NCBI RefSeq assembly: GCF_024707505.1
Contig: NZ_CP102604.1
Coordinates: 992,001-1,056,000 of the forward strand
From: Pantoea sp. SOD02
Lineage (GTDB): Bacteria; Pseudomonadota; Gammaproteobacteria; Enterobacterales; Enterobacteriaceae
Length of the DNA: 64,000 nucleotides
Reading direction: 5' to 3'
Position 1 is the stretch's first letter; each line of letters opens with the position of its first letter. This document shows positions 235-5,142 of this stretch, piece by piece. The position numbers and the translations under genes are program-made. The notes beneath the pieces are model-generated. The model was not told where the DNA came from and did no database searches. It saw only the letters and a list, made by a program, of their open reading frames with translations.

Positions 235-262
235 TTGGGTAGTAAACTGCCGGTAATATAAA
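235..262 (+). promoter_or_regulatory. Candidate promoter and operator of the phage-type repressor
   Basis: A TATAAA box at 257-262 lies 16 bp after TTGGGT at 235-240. Between them, 243-257 reads TAAACTGCCGGTAAT, 10 of 15 positions matching the palindrome at 318-332. This layout would let the downstream repressor control its own synthesis. The -35 box is poor, so the promoter is tentative. The rest of 1-324 is AT-rich; no convincing gene, and no cro-like reading frame on the minus strand, was seen there. Confidence 0.4.
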
Positions 263-317
263 ATGAACTGGTAGCAAAAATGAAAATAACATTCAGTCTT
301 TTACTGAAGGCAGATTA

Positions 318-332
318 TTAACTGATGGTTAA
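318..332. promoter_or_regulatory. Palindromic operator over the repressor start codon
   Basis: TTAACTGATGGTTAA is an inverted repeat with TTAAC/GTTAA arms around a 5-bp centre. The centre contains the ATG start codon of the repressor at 325. Near copies recur at 1108-1122 and 1130-1144 before the N-like gene, as expected for oR- and oL-type operators of one repressor. Binding here should also block the repressor's own transcription. Confidence 0.6.
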
Positions 333-1056
333 AAAAGAGAGTACGAGACAAGCATTCACTGCCAGGCTGATTGCCGCATGCGAAAGCGCGGGAATTGTCG
401 GACATGGACGAAACAAACAGGTTGCGCTTGCGCTGCAAGAGAGGGGATGCAAGATCTCAACGCCGGGGGTGTGGAAATGGTTTAACGGACAATCGATACC
501 TGATGATAATAATTTACTGGCGCTTAGCCAGTTACTCGACGTGCGCGTTGAGTGGCTGCAATTTGGCATGGAAAAACCGGCCGTTTTGCTAACGCAGCGC
601 AGTTTGGTGAATCCACAGCATCTGTTTCGCGTTGAAAGTTTGGATATCGGCCAGCACGGCGTGCGCAGTAGTTCTACGCGCGATGAACTGGTGGAGACCA
701 TTCAAGCCATTGAATATGGGCTGGAAGAGGCGCGGGTGCTGTTTAACGGCCGCCCGGCTGAAAACATTCGCCTCATCGCGCTCAACAGCGATTCGATGGC
801 TGGCACCTTCGCGCCGCGCGATCAGCTGTTTGTCGATATCAGCGTGCATCGCTTCGACGGCGATGGCATTTATCTGTTCACGCTTGACGATCAGCTCTAT
901 CTCAAACGCCTGCAACTTCAGCACAAAAAAGTCGCGGTGATCTCCGATAACAAGCGCTATGAAACCTGGTATCTCACGCTGGAAGAAGCCAGGACGCTGC
1001 AAGTGGTGGCGCGGGTGATCATGAGCCAGGCGCGGGATTATCAAATTCTAGGCTGA
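325..1056 (+). CDS. CI-like phage repressor (HTH plus S24 peptidase-fold domain)
   Basis: A 243-residue regulator with an N-terminal XRE-type helix-turn-helix (about residues 10-80, including the segment GVWKWFNGQSIPDDNNLLAL) and a C-terminal LexA/CI-like S24 domain (about 145-240). The S24 serine-lysine dyad is visible as S157 in SDSM and K194 in LYLKR. No Ala-Gly or Cys-Gly dipeptide occurs in the linker (about 100-150), where lambda CI and LexA are cut. The dyad is therefore present but self-cleavage is uncertain, and induction might need an antirepressor or an atypical site. The gene lies just before a pL-like promoter, nut site and N-like gene on the same strand, the order of lambda's leftward cI-pL-N segment. 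Its likely role is to keep the lysis operon silent. Confidence 0.88.
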   Translation: MVKKESTRQAFTARLIAACESAGIVGHGRNKQVALALQERGCKISTPGVWKWFNGQSIPDDNNLLALSQLLDVRVEWLQFGMEKPAVLLTQRSLVNPQHLFRVESLDIGQHGVRSSSTRDELVETIQAIEYGLEEARVLFNGRPAENIRLIALNSDSMAGTFAPRDQLFVDISVHRFDGDGIYLFTLDDQLYLKRLQLQHKKVAVISDNKRYETWYLTLEEARTLQVVARVIMSQARDYQILG

Positions 1057-1107
1057 TCACAAAACGCCAGATTGCGACAAAAAAATATTTTGGCTGAAAT
1101 CATAAAT

Positions 1108-1144
1108 TTAACTGATGGTAAATAAAAAATTAACCATTGGTGTT
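1108..1144. promoter_or_regulatory. Paired operators next to the pL-like promoter
   Basis: Two copies of the 318-332 palindrome lie 22 bp apart. At 1108-1122, TTAACTGATGGTAAA differs only in the right half-site. At 1130-1144, TTAACCATTGGTGTT matches the motif read on the opposite strand at 11 of 15 positions. The second copy touches the -35 box at 1144-1149, so repressor binding would block the promoter, as at lambda oL. Confidence 0.62.
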
Positions 1145-1172
1145 TGCCAATGCATTAGAACCTGTTAATAAT
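1144..1172 (+). promoter_or_regulatory. pL-like promoter of the N-lysis operon
   Basis: TTGCCA at 1144-1149 and AATAAT at 1167-1172 each match the sigma-70 consensus in five of six positions, with the ideal 17-bp spacer. Transcription should begin near 1179, about 35 nt before boxA, so the nut site would be transcribed immediately. The operators at 1108-1144 abut the -35 box. Confidence 0.65.
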
Positions 1173-1212
1173 TTGAGCATGGATGGACAACATATCTGCT
1201 CACGGATGAGCC

Positions 1213-1245
1213 CGCTCTTAAACAATTGAGGCGCTGCACAAGCGC
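1213..1245 (+). promoter_or_regulatory. nut site (boxA and boxB) for N antitermination
   Basis: CGCTCTTA at 1213-1220 is identical to lambda boxA. After a 10-nt spacer, GCGCTGCACAAGCGC at 1231-1245 forms a 5-bp stem with a 5-nt loop, the geometry of boxB; its stem equals that of P22 boxB as I remember it. It lies between the pL-like promoter and an N-like gene whose arginine-rich segment resembles P22 N. The loop is GCACA rather than a GNRNA-type loop, so it may show altered specificity. Confidence 0.82.
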
Positions 1246-1253
1246 GATACATA

Positions 1254-1282
1254 CCATCCAAAGTTAGTGAACTTTGGGATGG
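1254..1282 (+). promoter_or_regulatory. Long hairpin between nut and the N-like gene
   Basis: CCATCCAAAGTT at 1254-1265 pairs with 1270-1282 through 12 base pairs and one bulged base, around an AGTG loop. No U-run follows, so it is not a standard terminator. In lambda the leader between nutL and N holds an RNase III-sensitive hairpin used in N autoregulation. This structure is in the equivalent place and could act the same way (inference). Confidence 0.5.
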
Positions 1283-1471
1283 GGTGGATACGCACTTTGC
1301 AGCGTTGTCAGTTGCCCTCTGTTTTTCACTCTCCTCTACTTCACCCTGGTCGCGAATGCAGCCGGGCGAGTTGACGTCGAGTATTTTCCAGAGGAACAGC
1401 GAACGCGTCGGCATCAGCCGCATCGCCATGCCTGCCACCCCATCGCCAAAGACTCATTAACAGGAGGAGTT

Positions 1472-1750
1472 ATGGCGATTATTCAGTACGGGAAGTCAGT
1501 ATTTACCGGCAATGCACGCACGCGCCGCCATCGGCGACGCCAGTCCCTCAGCCGCCTTAAGCGCAGCATCGATAGCGCACTTGGCATCGAATACGAAAAT
1601 GTCACCCTGCGTACTGCTGAGCGTATCTGCCAGCGCCAGACGCTGTCGCGCGTTGATTGCGCCGTGTTAGCGCCCGTTCGCGTTCAGCAGGAACAGGCGA
1701 GCGTTGATAACTGCTGTTTGCCCCATGTTTATTTGTACGCCGTGCGCTAA
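1472..1750 (+). CDS. P22-type N antitermination protein
   Basis: A 92-residue basic protein. Its N-terminus (MAIIQYGKSVFTGNARTRRH, then RRRQS) closely parallels the P22 N protein as I recall it, which begins with a YGKS..GNAKTRRHERRR segment; that arginine-rich stretch binds boxB RNA. A C-terminal LPHVYLYA also resembles the P22 N tail. The ATG at 1472 is chosen because AGGAGG sits just upstream at 1462-1467; longer upstream frames lack this. A good boxA/boxB lies 230 bp before it. N proteins modify RNA polymerase at nut so that it reads through downstream terminators; here those would lie before or within the lysis genes. The amino-acid parallel comes from memory, not a search. Confidence 0.82.
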   Translation: MAIIQYGKSVFTGNARTRRHRRRQSLSRLKRSIDSALGIEYENVTLRTAERICQRQTLSRVDCAVLAPVRVQQEQASVDNCCLPHVYLYAVR

Positions 1751-1813
1751 ACCTGCATCACTTTCCCCAGTTTTAAACGGAACGTTTCATTGTTGCTCAC
1801 TGTTTAACCATTC

Positions 1814-1850
1814 TTGAGCGTTTCGCTTATCTGATAACGCGCTCAATGTT
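1814..1850 (+). terminator. Weak terminator-like hairpin before the lysis genes
   Basis: TTGAGCG at 1814-1820 pairs with CGCTCAA at 1840-1846 across a 19-nt loop and is followed by TGTTTTAAA. This lies between the N-like gene and the endolysin, where an N-sensitive terminator would be expected. The long loop and short U-run make it a weak candidate. Confidence 0.35.
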
Positions 1851-1932
1851 TTAAACGATCAGCGGAATTTATGTTTTTTGCCGTTTTGCGCAGCCATTTT
1901 CGGACTGTTGCGCCCGTCAAAGAGGAATTTCT

Positions 1933-2400
1933 ATGAGCCAGATTATTGCCATCCTGAATTTTGAAGAGGGTTACCGCGAAGCGCCTTATCTCGACACGCA
2001 GGGTTTCCCCACGGTCGCGGGCGGCATTCGCATTGGCCCCAAAGGTGCCTCGCTCAGCAACTACATCTTCCAGGTGCCGCGTCCGGTGGGCGATGTGTGG
2101 AAGCAGTGCATTGTCGAGGGCAAGGTGCAGCAGATGCATCAACGTGCGCTGGTGCAGCAGGCGCTGGCCAAATGCAATGAAGCGCGCTGCGATGTGCTGA
2201 TCAGCATGGGCTATCAACTGGGTATCGATGGATTGGCGATGTTTCGCGGCATGCTCACCGCGATTACCCAGGGCGACTTCAACAGCGCGGCGAACGCCAT
2301 GCTCGATAGCCTGTGGGCGCGTCAAACTTCGGGCCGCGCGCGGCGCCATGCCGAAGTGATGCGCAGCGGCACCTATGACATCTATCGGGGGCTGCTATGA
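1933..2400 (+). CDS. T4-lysozyme-type endolysin (glycoside hydrolase family 24)
   Basis: A 155-residue muramidase that cuts the peptidoglycan glycan strand during lysis. The catalytic triad of T4 lysozyme has equivalents in E12 (before Gly), D21 (in LDTQG) and T27, with the exact 9- and 6-residue spacings of T4 E11-D20-T26. The C-terminal segment LWARQTSGRARRHAEVMRSG is also typical of the family. There is no signal peptide or signal-anchor, so it should need the adjacent holin to reach the wall. RBS AGAGGAA at 1920-1926. The stop overlaps the next start (ATGA at 2397), indicating coupled translation with the holin. Confidence 0.9.
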   Translation: MSQIIAILNFEEGYREAPYLDTQGFPTVAGGIRIGPKGASLSNYIFQVPRPVGDVWKQCIVEGKVQQMHQRALVQQALAKCNEARCDVLISMGYQLGIDGLAMFRGMLTAITQGDFNSAANAMLDSLWARQTSGRARRHAEVMRSGTYDIYRGLL

Positions 2401-2747
2401 ATCTGAAATTGCTGATTTTTATCATTGCGGTGCTGCTGGTGATCATTGTGGTGTTGATCATGCAGCGCTTTACCACGCTGGAGTTCGTCAAACATGCGCG
2501 GCTGTTATTCAAAACCTGGTCGGTGTGGCTGGCGTCGCTTGGTTCGATGCTCAGTGCGTGGGTGCAATCGTTTCCCAGCGCTGCGCTTGATGCCTGGAAC
2601 AGCATGCCGCCCGATGTGAAAGAGATTCTGCCGCATAACTATTTGGGGCTGATTGGGGCCTTTATGGTGGCGATGGGCGTGATTGCTCAGTTCGTCCGCC
2701 AGAAAGGCCTTAACCAGCAGAAAATCGCCATGGAGGAAAAAGCATGA
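2397..2747 (+). CDS. Putative holin
   Basis: A 116-residue membrane protein with a hydrophobic N-terminal segment (about residues 4-22), a middle segment with aromatic residues, a second membrane segment near the C-terminus (about 83-100) and a charged tail. The middle part (about 45-80, with a PSAALDAW.SMPPDVKEILP pattern) resembles holins of enterobacterial phages. It sits between the endolysin and the spanin genes with 4-bp overlaps on both sides, the classic holin position. Its expected role is to form the inner-membrane lesion that frees the endolysin. The family call rests on topology and position. Confidence 0.72.
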   Translation: MNLKLLIFIIAVLLVIIVVLIMQRFTTLEFVKHARLLFKTWSVWLASLGSMLSAWVQSFPSAALDAWNSMPPDVKEILPHNYLGLIGAFMVAMGVIAQFVRQKGLNQQKIAMEEKA

Positions 2748-3037
2748 CACTTCTCACCACATTGCTCGGCGGCAGCTGGCATTGGCTGGCCTCGCTGGCG
2801 GGCGTGATTGCCGCGCTGGTCGCCAGCTACTTCGGTGGCAAGAAAATCGGCAAGGTGCAGCAAGCATCCAAATCCGCCGTCGAGCGCGCCGATAAAGCCG
2901 CGGCGCAAGCGGTAGCGGTTAACCAGCAGCAGCAACAGCTGCGCGAGGAGGCCAAACGTGTGGAAGCCAGCAACCTTAATCTTGATGACGCTGCTGCTCG
3001 CGACAAGTTGCAGCAGTCGAAATACCACCAGCCTTGA
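2744..3037 (+). CDS. Inner-membrane spanin (Rz-like)
   Basis: A 97-residue protein with one N-terminal transmembrane segment (about 12-31) followed by an Ala/Gln-rich helical, probably coiled-coil region (about 38-80) that would extend across the periplasm. This is the i-spanin plan. It starts 4 bp inside the holin gene, and the outer-membrane spanin gene begins inside it in another frame. Spanins fuse inner and outer membranes in the last step of Gram-negative lysis. It is shorter than lambda Rz. Confidence 0.8.
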   Translation: MTLLTTLLGGSWHWLASLAGVIAALVASYFGGKKIGKVQQASKSAVERADKAAAQAVAVNQQQQQLREEAKRVEASNLNLDDAAARDKLQQSKYHQP

Positions 3038-3188
3038 AGCTCCCGTCGTAATCGACTCAGCCTGCACCCTTTTTTCCCCGATTTACACCCACGGCAATGA
3101 CGCCGAGCGCATGGACATTCGCACCGTGCGCGCCATCAACAATCACAACGATCTTTGGGATCAGCACTGCGGCCAACCAGCTCACTAA
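2958..3188 (+). CDS. Outer-membrane spanin lipoprotein (Rz1-like)
   Basis: A 76-residue product with a short signal sequence and a lipobox ending ATSC, so the mature protein should begin at a lipidated cysteine. The start is a GTG at 2958 inside the i-spanin gene in a different frame, with GAGGAGG immediately upstream at 2945-2951. Overlapping Rz/Rz1 genes are characteristic of phage spanin pairs. Here the o-spanin extends about 150 bp beyond the end of Rz, so the pair is staggered rather than nested. The mature part is less proline-rich than lambda Rz1. Confidence 0.8.
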   Translation: MWKPATLILMTLLLATSCSSRNTTSLEAPVVIDSACTLFSPIYTHGNDAERMDIRTVRAINNHNDLWDQHCGQPAH

Positions 3189-3239
3189 CGCTGCTCTCTT
3201 GCATTTGCATTACCTACCCGAAAAGCCGAGGAGGCTATA

Positions 3240-4985
3240 ATGATCGAAGTTAACTCTTACGCAGAACTGCGCACCACTGTTCCGGCCAAAAACGGCGATC
3301 TGGCATTCTTACGTCGTTACAACGCGGACTCCACCTTCCACGGTGGCGGTGATTTCACCGGTTTTATCGGCACCACAACGGCGGTCGAAGATGGCGGTAC
3401 GCTGGTGATCGGTAACGGTTTTTACTGGAAACGCGTGATTAACGATCCGTCGGAGATCAACGTGTATCACTTCGGTGCCAAAGGCGATGGTTACGCCAAC
3501 GATACCGATGCCTTTAACCGCATGCTGGCGTGGACGCAAAACTATTCGGGCAATATCACCGCGTTGCCGGTGCGTTTCCCTGGCGGTAAATTCCTGATCA
3601 GCCCAATCGATATCAGCGGCACCGAGCGCGCCTTCTTCGGTTTGCAAGGTGATGATGTGGAGCTGGGTTCGCTGCCGCGTACCACCATTATTTCCGACAA
3701 AAGTGCCAACACGGTGTTCAAGGTGAAGGCGCGTCGTACCTCCATTCGAGGTATCGCGTGGAACGGCCAGGCATCCGCCGATATCACCACCAACAAAAGC
3801 ACCATCACCTCCGATATGTGCAGCAACGTGCAGCCGTTCTTCGAAAACACCTGCATCGAAGGCACCACCGTCAATATCTACTGTTTCCGCGCGCAGAATA
3901 ACGGCGGTACGGTGATCAAAGTGCTGGATACCCTCGACAGTAAATTCGACCAGATTTACACCCTGTATACCTATGCGCGCGTATTTGATGTCGGCTGGTC
4001 AAACTCGCCGAAAGGCGCGTGGGATCACTCCACGGCGATTGAGCTGTGTAACTGTAACTTCCAGACCGGTTACGGCGACGCCACGCTCTACATGCCGCGT
4101 GTGACGCAGGGGATTATTCGCAACGTGTGGATCGAACACACGCGTAATCCGGGCGATCTCTCTGACGGCGGCTGGACGGTGGATACGCTGAACATTGAGG
4201 ATTGCGGCACGCCGTTGAATCTCAACAATGCGCGTGTGGTGATCCGCCAACTCAACCTGCAATCCGGTGCGAAACTCAGTCTGGATGCTGCCGCCGGACG
4301 TTGGTTGTCCACCTTTGAATATGGCTATCGTCGCGACGAAAACTACGGCACCTTCATGACCGGATCGCTGCGCGCCGGCTATTACAGCGGCTACAAAATT
4401 ACCAATAACACCGATACCGATAATTGGTACCGCGTCGGGCAGCTGTTCTTCCCGAACGCCAACCAGCAATGGGTAATGGAGTTTATTGGTAAAGCGGATG
4501 CCACTCAGCCCACCGGCACCGCCGGTTCGCCGGTTAACGTGGCGGCGACCGGTAAAACCTGGGTCAATCTGCAGCGCCTGGAAACGGTGTGGGCCGATGC
4601 CTATCACATGGGGCAACCTGCGGTGCTGGATATTCGCTACAGCCGCGTTGGCACCACCTATGCAGCGGTGTGGGTAAAACTGCGCGCCAACAGTGGCGAT
4701 ACCATGCTCAACCTGAAATGTACCGGTCCAACGCGTTTCGATACCGGTTCCTGCTCGCTGTTCCAGCAGGACTTCTCGGTGGTGACCGATACCACCAAAA
4801 TGGGTGGATTCAAACCGGCGGCACGTTTTGGTCTGCATAACGGATTGGCGGGAATTGGGGCGAATGAGAAAGGGGTGCTAACTGTCGCGACGGCAGCCGG
4901 CACGCCGACCAACGCCACCGCGCCGACGGGCTTTGTGCTGGTCAACATTAACGGTGTCGATCGTAAACTTCCTTATTACGATTGA
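3240..4985 (+). CDS. Tailspike-like beta-helix protein, probable exopolysaccharide depolymerase
   Basis: A 581-residue protein. Near residues 75-95 it carries YHFGAKGDGYANDTDAF, the hallmark start of the pectate-lyase-superfamily right-handed beta-helix found in phage tailspikes and depolymerases. The following region is rich in short Asn/Gly/Thr turns, as expected of stacked coils. There is no signal peptide or membrane segment, so release would require lysis or assembly on a particle. The first 70 residues could be an adaptor domain. It follows the spanin gene by 51 bp with RBS GAGGAGG and ends before a strong terminator, so it is the last gene of the module. Family relatives degrade capsule or EPS; the substrate here is unknown. 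No tail or baseplate gene is present in the window for it to attach to. Confidence 0.75.
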   Translation: MIEVNSYAELRTTVPAKNGDLAFLRRYNADSTFHGGGDFTGFIGTTTAVEDGGTLVIGNGFYWKRVINDPSEINVYHFGAKGDGYANDTDAFNRMLAWTQNYSGNITALPVRFPGGKFLISPIDISGTERAFFGLQGDDVELGSLPRTTIISDKSANTVFKVKARRTSIRGIAWNGQASADITTNKSTITSDMCSNVQPFFENTCIEGTTVNIYCFRAQNNGGTVIKVLDTLDSKFDQIYTLYTYARVFDVGWSNSPKGAWDHSTAIELCNCNFQTGYGDATLYMPRVTQGIIRNVWIEHTRNPGDLSDGGWTVDTLNIEDCGTPLNLNNARVVIRQLNLQSGAKLSLDAAAGRWLSTFEYGYRRDENYGTFMTGSLRAGYYSGYKITNNTDTDNWYRVGQLFFPNANQQWVMEFIGKADATQPTGTAGSPVNVAATGKTWVNLQRLETVWADAYHMGQPAVLDIRYSRVGTTYAAVWVKLRANSGDTMLNLKCTGPTRFDTGSCSLFQQDFSVVTDTTKMGGFKPAARFGLHNGLAGIGANEKGVLTVATAAGTPTNATAPTGFVLVNINGVDRKLPYYD

Positions 4986-5002
4986 GGGCTGGCATCTTTT
5001 TG

Positions 5003-5029
5003 GCGAGGCTTCGGCCTCGCTTTTTTTTT
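5003..5029 (+). terminator. Strong intrinsic terminator of the lysis-tailspike operon
   Basis: GCGAGGC, TTCG tetraloop and GCCTCGC form a 7-bp GC-rich hairpin followed by nine T residues, 18 bp after the tailspike stop codon. Confidence 0.93.
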
Positions 5030-5062
5030 GCAAAAATTTCCTGAATAGTGTGCGGTGATTTA

Positions 5063-5136
5063 CCAGGTCGCCATGAATGGCGACCCTACAAAACCTTGCC
5101 TTATATCCGTAGGGTCGCCATTTATGGCGACCTGGT
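5063..5136. repeat. Pair of GTAGGGT-type intergenic palindromes, inverted
   Basis: Two copies in opposite orientation: CCAGGTCGCCATGAATGGCG at 5063-5082 and its continuation, then GTAGGGTCGCCATTTATGGC at 5109-5128 and its continuation. They lie between two converging operons. See the findings for the genome-wide family. Confidence 0.85.
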
Positions 5137-5142
5137 TGAACA

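Follow-up and report, generated by a model that had tools for sequence, protein, structure and literature searches.

Clusters of holin, endolysin and spanin genes that lie outside phage genomes are defined in two reports as type 10 secretion systems (T10SS; PMC10847048, PMC13284979). The named examples, Serratia ChiWXYZ, Yersinia YenLC and Salmonella ChiH-ChiP, combine a holin with a peptidoglycan hydrolase outside a phage and have a cytoplasmic cargo, and the same holds for a module at the left end of the 64,000-nucleotide stretch of Pantoea sp. SOD02 DNA analysed here (contig NZ_CP102604.1, positions 992,001 to 1,056,000; hereafter the window, with positions counted from its first letter). 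On a single strand, this module comprises a cI repressor gene, operators, a pL promoter, boxA and boxB, a P22-type N gene, the genes of a GH24 endolysin, a holin and the spanin Rz with embedded Rz1, the gene of an exopolysaccharide (EPS) depolymerase termed DPO, and a terminator. A holin and a peptidoglycan hydrolase outside a phage genome, together with a two-component spanin, are the features of a T10SS of the lytic type, and judged by its predicted products the module qualifies anatomically as a T10SS. According to the same reports, Rz/Rz1 spanins are common to the module and the T10SSs of Serratia and Yersinia. While the named systems are controlled by ChiR or RoeA, the module has a lambdoid control by CI, operators, N and nut, and it further differs from the named systems by its muramidase-type GH24 endolysin and by an EPS depolymerase as cargo that is encoded directly behind the lysis genes.

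We consider it probable, at roughly three in four, that the module descends from a prophage and was domesticated into a chromosomal operon, inherited mostly vertically, which releases the EPS depolymerase by programmed lysis. This view is carried by computed evidence, namely the parts and their order, the fixed place, the conservation, the purifying selection, the lack of a surrounding phage genome and like-minded cassettes in Erwinia. The elements from repressor to terminator that a preliminary description of the sequence had named on one strand are all present by profile matches and conservation. The parallel that it drew to type 10 secretion, in which the depolymerase would be the cargo, fits as well, and the Erwinia cassettes repeat this coupling under other regulators. 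Among the titles and abstract openings listed from the open-access literature, no description of such a cassette in Pantoea or Erwinia was found.

In the immunity region of lambda and P22, cI, pL with its operators, nut, the N leader stem and N follow each other on one strand in the order also seen in the module. Compared with the pL region of these phages, the module is devoid of cro, cIII and the recombination genes, and N is followed by genes for lysis and for a depolymerase, both of which belong to the late class in phages. The cargo is homologous to the EPS hydrolase WceF of Pantoea stewartii (6TGF), which aligns over DPO residues 3-580. The WceF report describes a tailspike-like beta-helix fold, a twin-arginine translocation (Tat) signal and a slow cleavage of stewartan (PMC7949094). 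Whereas WceF is encoded in an EPS gene cluster and possesses this Tat signal and approximately 168 additional N-terminal residues, DPO has neither and is located behind lysis genes. The depolymerases of phages phiEaP8 and Yoloswag, with 46% identity to DPO over the full length, are encoded in complete phage genomes.

Conservation and descent of the module in Pantoea

A genus sample of 61 genomes, Pantoea together with Mixta, was searched with DPO, and an uninterrupted full-length DPO of 75-100% identity was detected in 49 of them. The loci compared were those of these 49 genomes, four broken copies, one locus with fragments, and the proA loci of genomes without a good match. The order proA-cI-N-endolysin-holin-Rz/Rz1-DPO, or its remains, was found in 54 of the 61 genomes, whereas a lack of conservation outside intact prophages would have refuted the preliminary description; by length criteria, 44 of the 54 loci are strictly intact. 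Left out of the 54-locus counts were L083 (the second locus of genome G017), L087 (fragments), L097 (contig end) and four loci without the module (L and G numbers denote loci and genomes). The carriers include P. agglomerans, P. eucrina, P. septica, P. conspicua, P. allii, P. ananatis, P. stewartii and Mixta, and the module also occurs in P. dispersa (L143), Erwinia phyllosphaerae (L169) and one genome of another genus (G080, L181). Among the genomes outside the 54, G031 has a contig that stops just after proA, G042 retains no more than fragments of DPO, and the 1.4-Mb genome G044 matches neither DPO nor proA.

Pairwise NG86 estimates of omega were 0.08 for CI, 0.18 for N, 0.14 for the endolysin, 0.16 for the holin, 0.20 for Rz, 0.29 for Rz1, the frame of which overlaps another, and 0.125 for DPO, compared to 0.085 for proA. 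Saturated pairs and pairs outside a synonymous distance (dS) of 0.2-1.2 were left out, and genes shorter than 90% of the query length were omitted here and from the trees, with L076 (shifted endolysin end) and L044 (shorter CI) kept. Purifying selection thus acts on all seven genes of the module. A tree of the concatenated module from 46 loci has 29 of 43 splits in common with the proA tree, while 200 label shuffles yielded at most two; the descent was mostly vertical, with some exchange or error.

The gene thrW, a tRNA-Thr(CGT), follows DPO in 24 of the 54 loci within the approximately 3 kb of DNA fetched and was not seen there in the others, and the gap between DPO and thrW amounts to 153-242 nt in the 21 of these 24 with an intact DPO (21 of 50 loci). 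In four genomes without the module, thrW is located 0.8-1.1 kb behind proA. Because of these positions, the module has fixed edges, proA and thrW, in the loci where thrW was seen, and no further phage genes were seen between the two where thrW is visible. No integrase, head, tail or packaging genes stand beside the lysis genes, which have proB-proA on one side and an ABC transporter on the other in Pantoea sp. SOD02, and lie between proA and thrW in the relatives.

The window itself starts approximately 30 bases behind proA, and to its left lie frsA, crl, a gene of a PhoE/OmpC-type porin, proB and proA. A full prophage immediately to the left would have refuted the preliminary description, but proB-proA were found in this place; in the 12 kb left of the window, no phage genes were seen among open reading frames of at least 100 amino acids, the unnamed ones being judged by eye. 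To the right, the module is followed by an ABC transporter on the opposite strand. ARAGORN found no tRNA in the window. No copy of thrW, which many relatives have after the module, was found in the window, and the best match of the L100 thrW in the whole window genome was 77%. Just past the module terminator, at 5054-5140, two inverted copies of a palindromic repeat were noticed by eye (GGTCGCCAT..ATGGCGACC). In Mixta mediterraneensis (L055/L163), approximately 1.3 kb with transposase-like open reading frames, IS3-like by eye, lie between N and the endolysin gene, and the other genes are intact.

Products and control elements of the module

The gene of DPO (3240..4985, forward strand, as are all genes of the module) encodes a beta-helix protein of 581 amino acids that matches phrog_4250 'EPS depolymerase' at 1.4e-170 and WceF (6tgf) at 1.3e-101. 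The alignments begin at its residue 2, paired with position 150 of phrog_4250, and at its residue 3, paired with residue 169 of WceF, and neither the profile nor the WceF alignment revealed an N-terminal virion-binding domain. By hydropathy, a hydrophobic N terminus or signal peptide is absent from DPO in all 50 loci. DPO therefore looks like a soluble enzyme that would need lysis for its exit. The earlier label of a tailspike, i.e. a tail gene, is not supported, as a virion-binding domain is missing; the DPO relatives of phiEaP8 and Yoloswag are likewise stand-alone open reading frames without an extra N-terminal domain. Relatives of DPO were found in 129 of 50,697 phage records, with phiEaP8 as the best match (46%); by their names, 102 of the 129 belong to phages of Erwinia and 16 to phages of Pantoea. 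An AlphaFold model of DPO reached a mean pLDDT of only 53.4 and was not used. As judged by eye, the window genome also encodes a WceF-like protein of 736 amino acids among EPS genes, and in L185 (G000:C2) and L188 another DPO relative (approximately 30%) stands beside a large autotransporter- or esterase-like gene. At L101 (G049), the cargo appears to have been swapped: cI, N, endolysin and holin are retained together with a short stretch resembling the start of the old DPO, and a different depolymerase of 653 amino acids (34%) is encoded beyond thrW.

The lysis genes start with a T4-lysozyme-like GH24 endolysin (1933..2400), which matches phrog_7 at 1.3e-10 and Phage_lysozyme at 1.8e-4, exactly at the cut-off; each residue of its triad E12-D21-T27 is retained in 51 of 52 loci. 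The holin (2397..2747; DUF7940 1.7e-14, phrog_1356 holin 5.3e-20) has hydrophobic segments near residues 3-22 and 82-100, and is followed by the i-spanin Rz (2744..3037; phrog_1026 4.9e-10) and the o-spanin Rz1 (2958..3188; phrog_1275 1e-18). Rz1 begins inside Rz, as in 48 of 48 loci, with a GTG start codon that is common to 49 of 50; neither L081 nor L101 showed recognisable spanins. A lysozyme/holin pair of P. stewartii that is activated by Lrp according to one report (PMC12285263) is plasmid-borne and was taken to represent other genes.

The repressor gene (325..1056) encodes a CI-like protein with a helix-turn-helix domain and an S24 peptidase domain (Peptidase_S24 1.2e-13 in Pfam; phrog_4 repressor 1.7e-31), which is 37% identical to the CI of HK022 over the full length and has its best phage match, with 45%, in Citrobacter phage Omnitron. 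The catalytic Ser and Lys are retained in the window CI, and in 49 and 52 of 52 orthologues, respectively. Aligned to HK022 CI, which has Ala-Gly in its linker, the linker of the window CI contains neither Ala-Gly nor Cys-Gly; one of these dipeptides is present in 21 of the 52 orthologues. Ala replaces the catalytic Ser in three of the 52, namely in P. stewartii (L076), P. ananatis LMG 2665 (L085) and P. allii (L075), and likewise in the CI of L181. Because the linker site is found in only 21 orthologues and Ser is lost in three, self-cleavage upon DNA damage is not conserved in this CI, and a derepression by DNA damage, as considered in the preliminary description, is not supported as a general property; to judge by the linker residues, such self-cleavage may persist in some species.

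The P22-type N antiterminator with its Arg-rich N terminus is encoded at 1472..1750 (N_peptide 2.5e-21 in Pfam; phrog_271 1.9e-13). N14, R16, T17, R18, R19, H20, R22 and R23 are invariant in all 16 sequences chosen, and a tblastn search of the phage records gave no match for N.

The counts of control elements given here refer to loci whose flanking genes are intact. A probable cI promoter lies at 235..277 on the forward strand, with a -35 box TTGGGT (235-240) and a -10 box TATAAA (257-262) assigned by eye and a conserved stretch at 251-277; the 20-base core of this region, GGTAATATAAAATGAACTGG, is identical in 52 of 52 loci. The start codon of cI is overlapped by a palindromic operator, TTAACTGATGGTTAA (318..332, no strand assigned), which occurs there as TTAACTRATGGTTAA, with one base being A or G, in 52 of 52 loci and represents the sole perfect match of the pattern TTAACYRNYRGTTAA in the whole window genome. 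With at most one mismatch, 17 sites were found in this genome, two of them in the module, versus 11 for a control pattern, which makes no case for a host regulon of CI. Two operator-like sites at pL (1108..1144, no strand assigned) consist of a one-mismatch match at 1108-1122 and a site at 1130-1144 recognised by eye and in the alignment.

The pL-like promoter TTGCCA-17-AATAAT (1144..1172, forward strand) agrees with the consensus at 10 of 12 positions, and its -10 region, GTTAATAATTT, was found in 51 of 51 loci. It is followed on the same strand by boxA, CGCTCTTA (1213..1220), with GCTCTTA present in 51 of 51 loci and the first C in 48, and by the boxB hairpin GCGCT-GCACA-AGCGC (1231..1245), which is identical in 50 of 51 loci; the lone exception is L076 of P. 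stewartii subsp. stewartii, where the endolysin frame is shifted as well. Between nut and N, the arms 1272-1287 and 1435-1451 can form a long-range leader stem (1272..1451, forward strand), which is placed much like the stem cut by RNase III in the N leader of lambda. Its 16 pairs form in 15 of 15 sequences chosen, with changes on both sides at two pairs, and the core of both arms is present in 49 of 51 loci; 13 of the 16 pairs are invariant, so that most of the stem is neutral as evidence on pairing. The module is closed by an intrinsic terminator (5002..5030, forward strand), a hairpin with a T-run that follows DPO in 47 of 50 loci. A scan of the window, in which pL was located at 1144-1172 and the terminator at 5002-5021, returned three promoter-like and seven terminator-like elements, which is about the number expected by chance (shuffle means 3.8 and 6.1); pL and the terminator are nevertheless credited because both are conserved across the genus.

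Depolymerase cassettes in Erwinia and phage origin

A match to DPO was present in 26 of 37 Erwinia genomes, and was full-length with at least 50% identity in 24. A first group, of 21 loci, combines DPO with a Q-like sequence in all 21 (Phage_antitermQ 1.7e-42), with a divergent repressor and an endolysin in 17, and with a holin and both spanins in 16. For the holin, however, found does not mean intact, since its frame overruns the expected end in L241, L246 and L247. Within the fetched DNA, a GGDEF gene lies on one side of these cassettes in 21 of 21 cases, and cheV and/or fliE/fliF on the other side in 18. Their omega values range from 0.08 to 0.31, based on 4 to 49 usable pairs per gene. In four loci of Erwinia genomes of 3.8-4.1 Mb (L228, L229, L233 and L234), only Q and DPO are left at the cheV/fliE locus, where neither a repressor gene nor any of the lysis genes was detected.

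Another type, in which a divergent CI is followed by endolysin, holin and DPO, is represented by L179, L239, L240, L243, L244 and L245, and with a cut endolysin by L242. A further type (L250), which follows rnc and the genes next to it, consists of CI, Q, a lysozyme, DPO and Rz, and L251 resembles it by its Q, lysozyme and DPO matches. In L237, L238, L249 and L254, DPO is present and the lysis set searched for was not found. The Erwinia cassettes join related lysis genes to the same enzyme under Q in place of N, or under a repressor alone. Across the Erwinia set (L180, L220-L254), stand-alone CI-Q-endolysin-holin-Rz/Rz1-DPO cassettes were noted at cheV/fliE, and CI-endolysin-holin-DPO cassettes elsewhere. 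A second locus of P. eucrina LMG 5346 (L083) holds CI, replication-like open reading frames, a possible Q, endolysin, Rz and a DPO of 49% identity; having no visible structural genes, it is possibly a half-way stage from prophage to cassette.

In a search across the family, the endolysin was found at E <= 1e-15 in 29 of 392 genomes, and stretches of up to 1.5 kb per side were fetched. The N-type order was seen in five Pantoea genomes and G080, and the order endolysin-holin-DPO in L111 and L118 of two Erwinia genomes, while the remaining genomes showed the endolysin and no DPO; L182 and L183 resemble ordinary prophages by eye. A phage genome with the same combination of genes was not found in IMG/VR, where 109 loci have a gene related to the endolysin and the best 80 of these were compared, with flanks of at most 6 kb and in part on much shorter contigs. 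In this set, N occurs only in L257 and L258, the latter being 1.5 kb long, and CI and DPO only in L257, the lone DPO-bearing locus, which also carries proA. Two reports describe thrW next to proA as the attachment site of the P22-like phage L and of SfI (PMC8022706, PMC3636060), and this use of thrW fits a lambdoid prophage as the ancestor. However, since thrW is located downstream of the module, a simple insertion of the ancestor at the 3' end of this gene does not fit, and a thrW attachment core left of the module gave no match above shuffled sequence.

Proposed function, rival explanations and significance

We hypothesize here that CI keeps pL, and probably its own promoter, shut, and that a failure of repression in a cell would lead to transcription from pL and to the synthesis of N, which would load at nut and take RNA polymerase through the whole operon. 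As in lambda, where the leader stem limits the synthesis of N, the stem would probably do so here. Endolysin, holin, Rz/Rz1 and DPO would then accumulate together until the holin triggers and the envelope opens, and the freed DPO, which has no signal, would cut stewartan- or amylovoran-type slime around sister cells and thereby thin or disperse the matrix. Induction, lysis, the activity of DPO and the benefit to the host are all parts of this proposal that we infer.

Several results weigh against this hypothesis. Ten of the 54 loci fail the strict test of intactness, among them those of P. stewartii subsp. stewartii (endolysin, with a differing boxB), P. ananatis LMG 2665 (interrupted DPO, and CI) and P. 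eucrina LMG 5346 (DPO), and four genomes (G012, G013, G032 and G041) have proA and no module. Five of 38 supported splits of the module tree conflict with supported splits of the proA tree. As far as the linker can tell, the window CI and over half of its orthologues look non-cleavable. An Arg-Arg pair is present in the first 35 residues of 20 of 50 DPOs, with no hydrophobic stretch after it. Finally, a conserved intrinsic terminator between N and endolysin is missing, with weak matches in 22 of 51 loci and none in the window; the antitermination of the lysis genes by N, as assumed in the preliminary description, is therefore also something that we infer.

The apparent uncoupling of the window CI from SOS self-cleavage means that another inducer is needed, and this favors the alternative that the module serves an altruistic defense, in which a lambdoid infection would inactivate CI, e.g. 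by means of an antirepressor, and early lysis of the infected cell would let DPO strip the neighbours of their EPS, the receptor of EPS-dependent phages. The 129 phage records with a DPO relative, mostly of Erwinia (102) and Pantoea (16) phages, are in line with such a role, but depolymerase-carrying phages would gain from it rather than suffer; we regard a defensive function as unlikely. Export of DPO by holin and endolysin without cell death would correspond to the Salmonella T10SS, which is non-lytic according to one report (PMC13284979); the same report mentions conflicting statements on lytic action of the Serratia T10SS. This mode is nonetheless very improbable here, given that the spanin pair is retained in the 48 loci where both frames pass, and that the spanin-bearing T10SSs of Yersinia and Serratia are lytic according to another report (PMC10847048). 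Least probable of all are functionless leftovers of a defective lambdoid prophage, to which the phage-type character of every part, the attachment site of phage L and SfI at thrW beside proA (PMC8022706 and PMC3636060) and the broken copies in some genomes would point, but against which stand the purifying selection on every gene, the conserved control elements, the retention of the same gene set by the majority of the genomes in the genus and its recurrence in Erwinia, where other regulators control the pairing, as decay alone hardly explains lysis genes and DPO paired under different switches and at different places.

Beyond the release of DPO by programmed lysis in Pantoea, the odds appear evenly balanced that suicidal public-good operons form a class of their own in the Erwiniaceae and arose by at least three to four separate assemblies. 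In such operons, a repressor and an antiterminator from phages (N/nut in Pantoea, Q in Erwinia) would act as an all-or-none switch that bursts a few cells, with DPO thinning the matrix or stripping a phage receptor for the benefit of kin. The module touches on the open questions of how a large EPS depolymerase without a signal reaches the matrix, and of how slime-forming plant bacteria thin their own biofilm. If our hypothesis is true, bacteria would have retained a complete lambdoid N/nut set and, separately, a Q gene to switch genes of their own, and T10SS-like release would be widened from toxins and chitinases to matrix enzymes.

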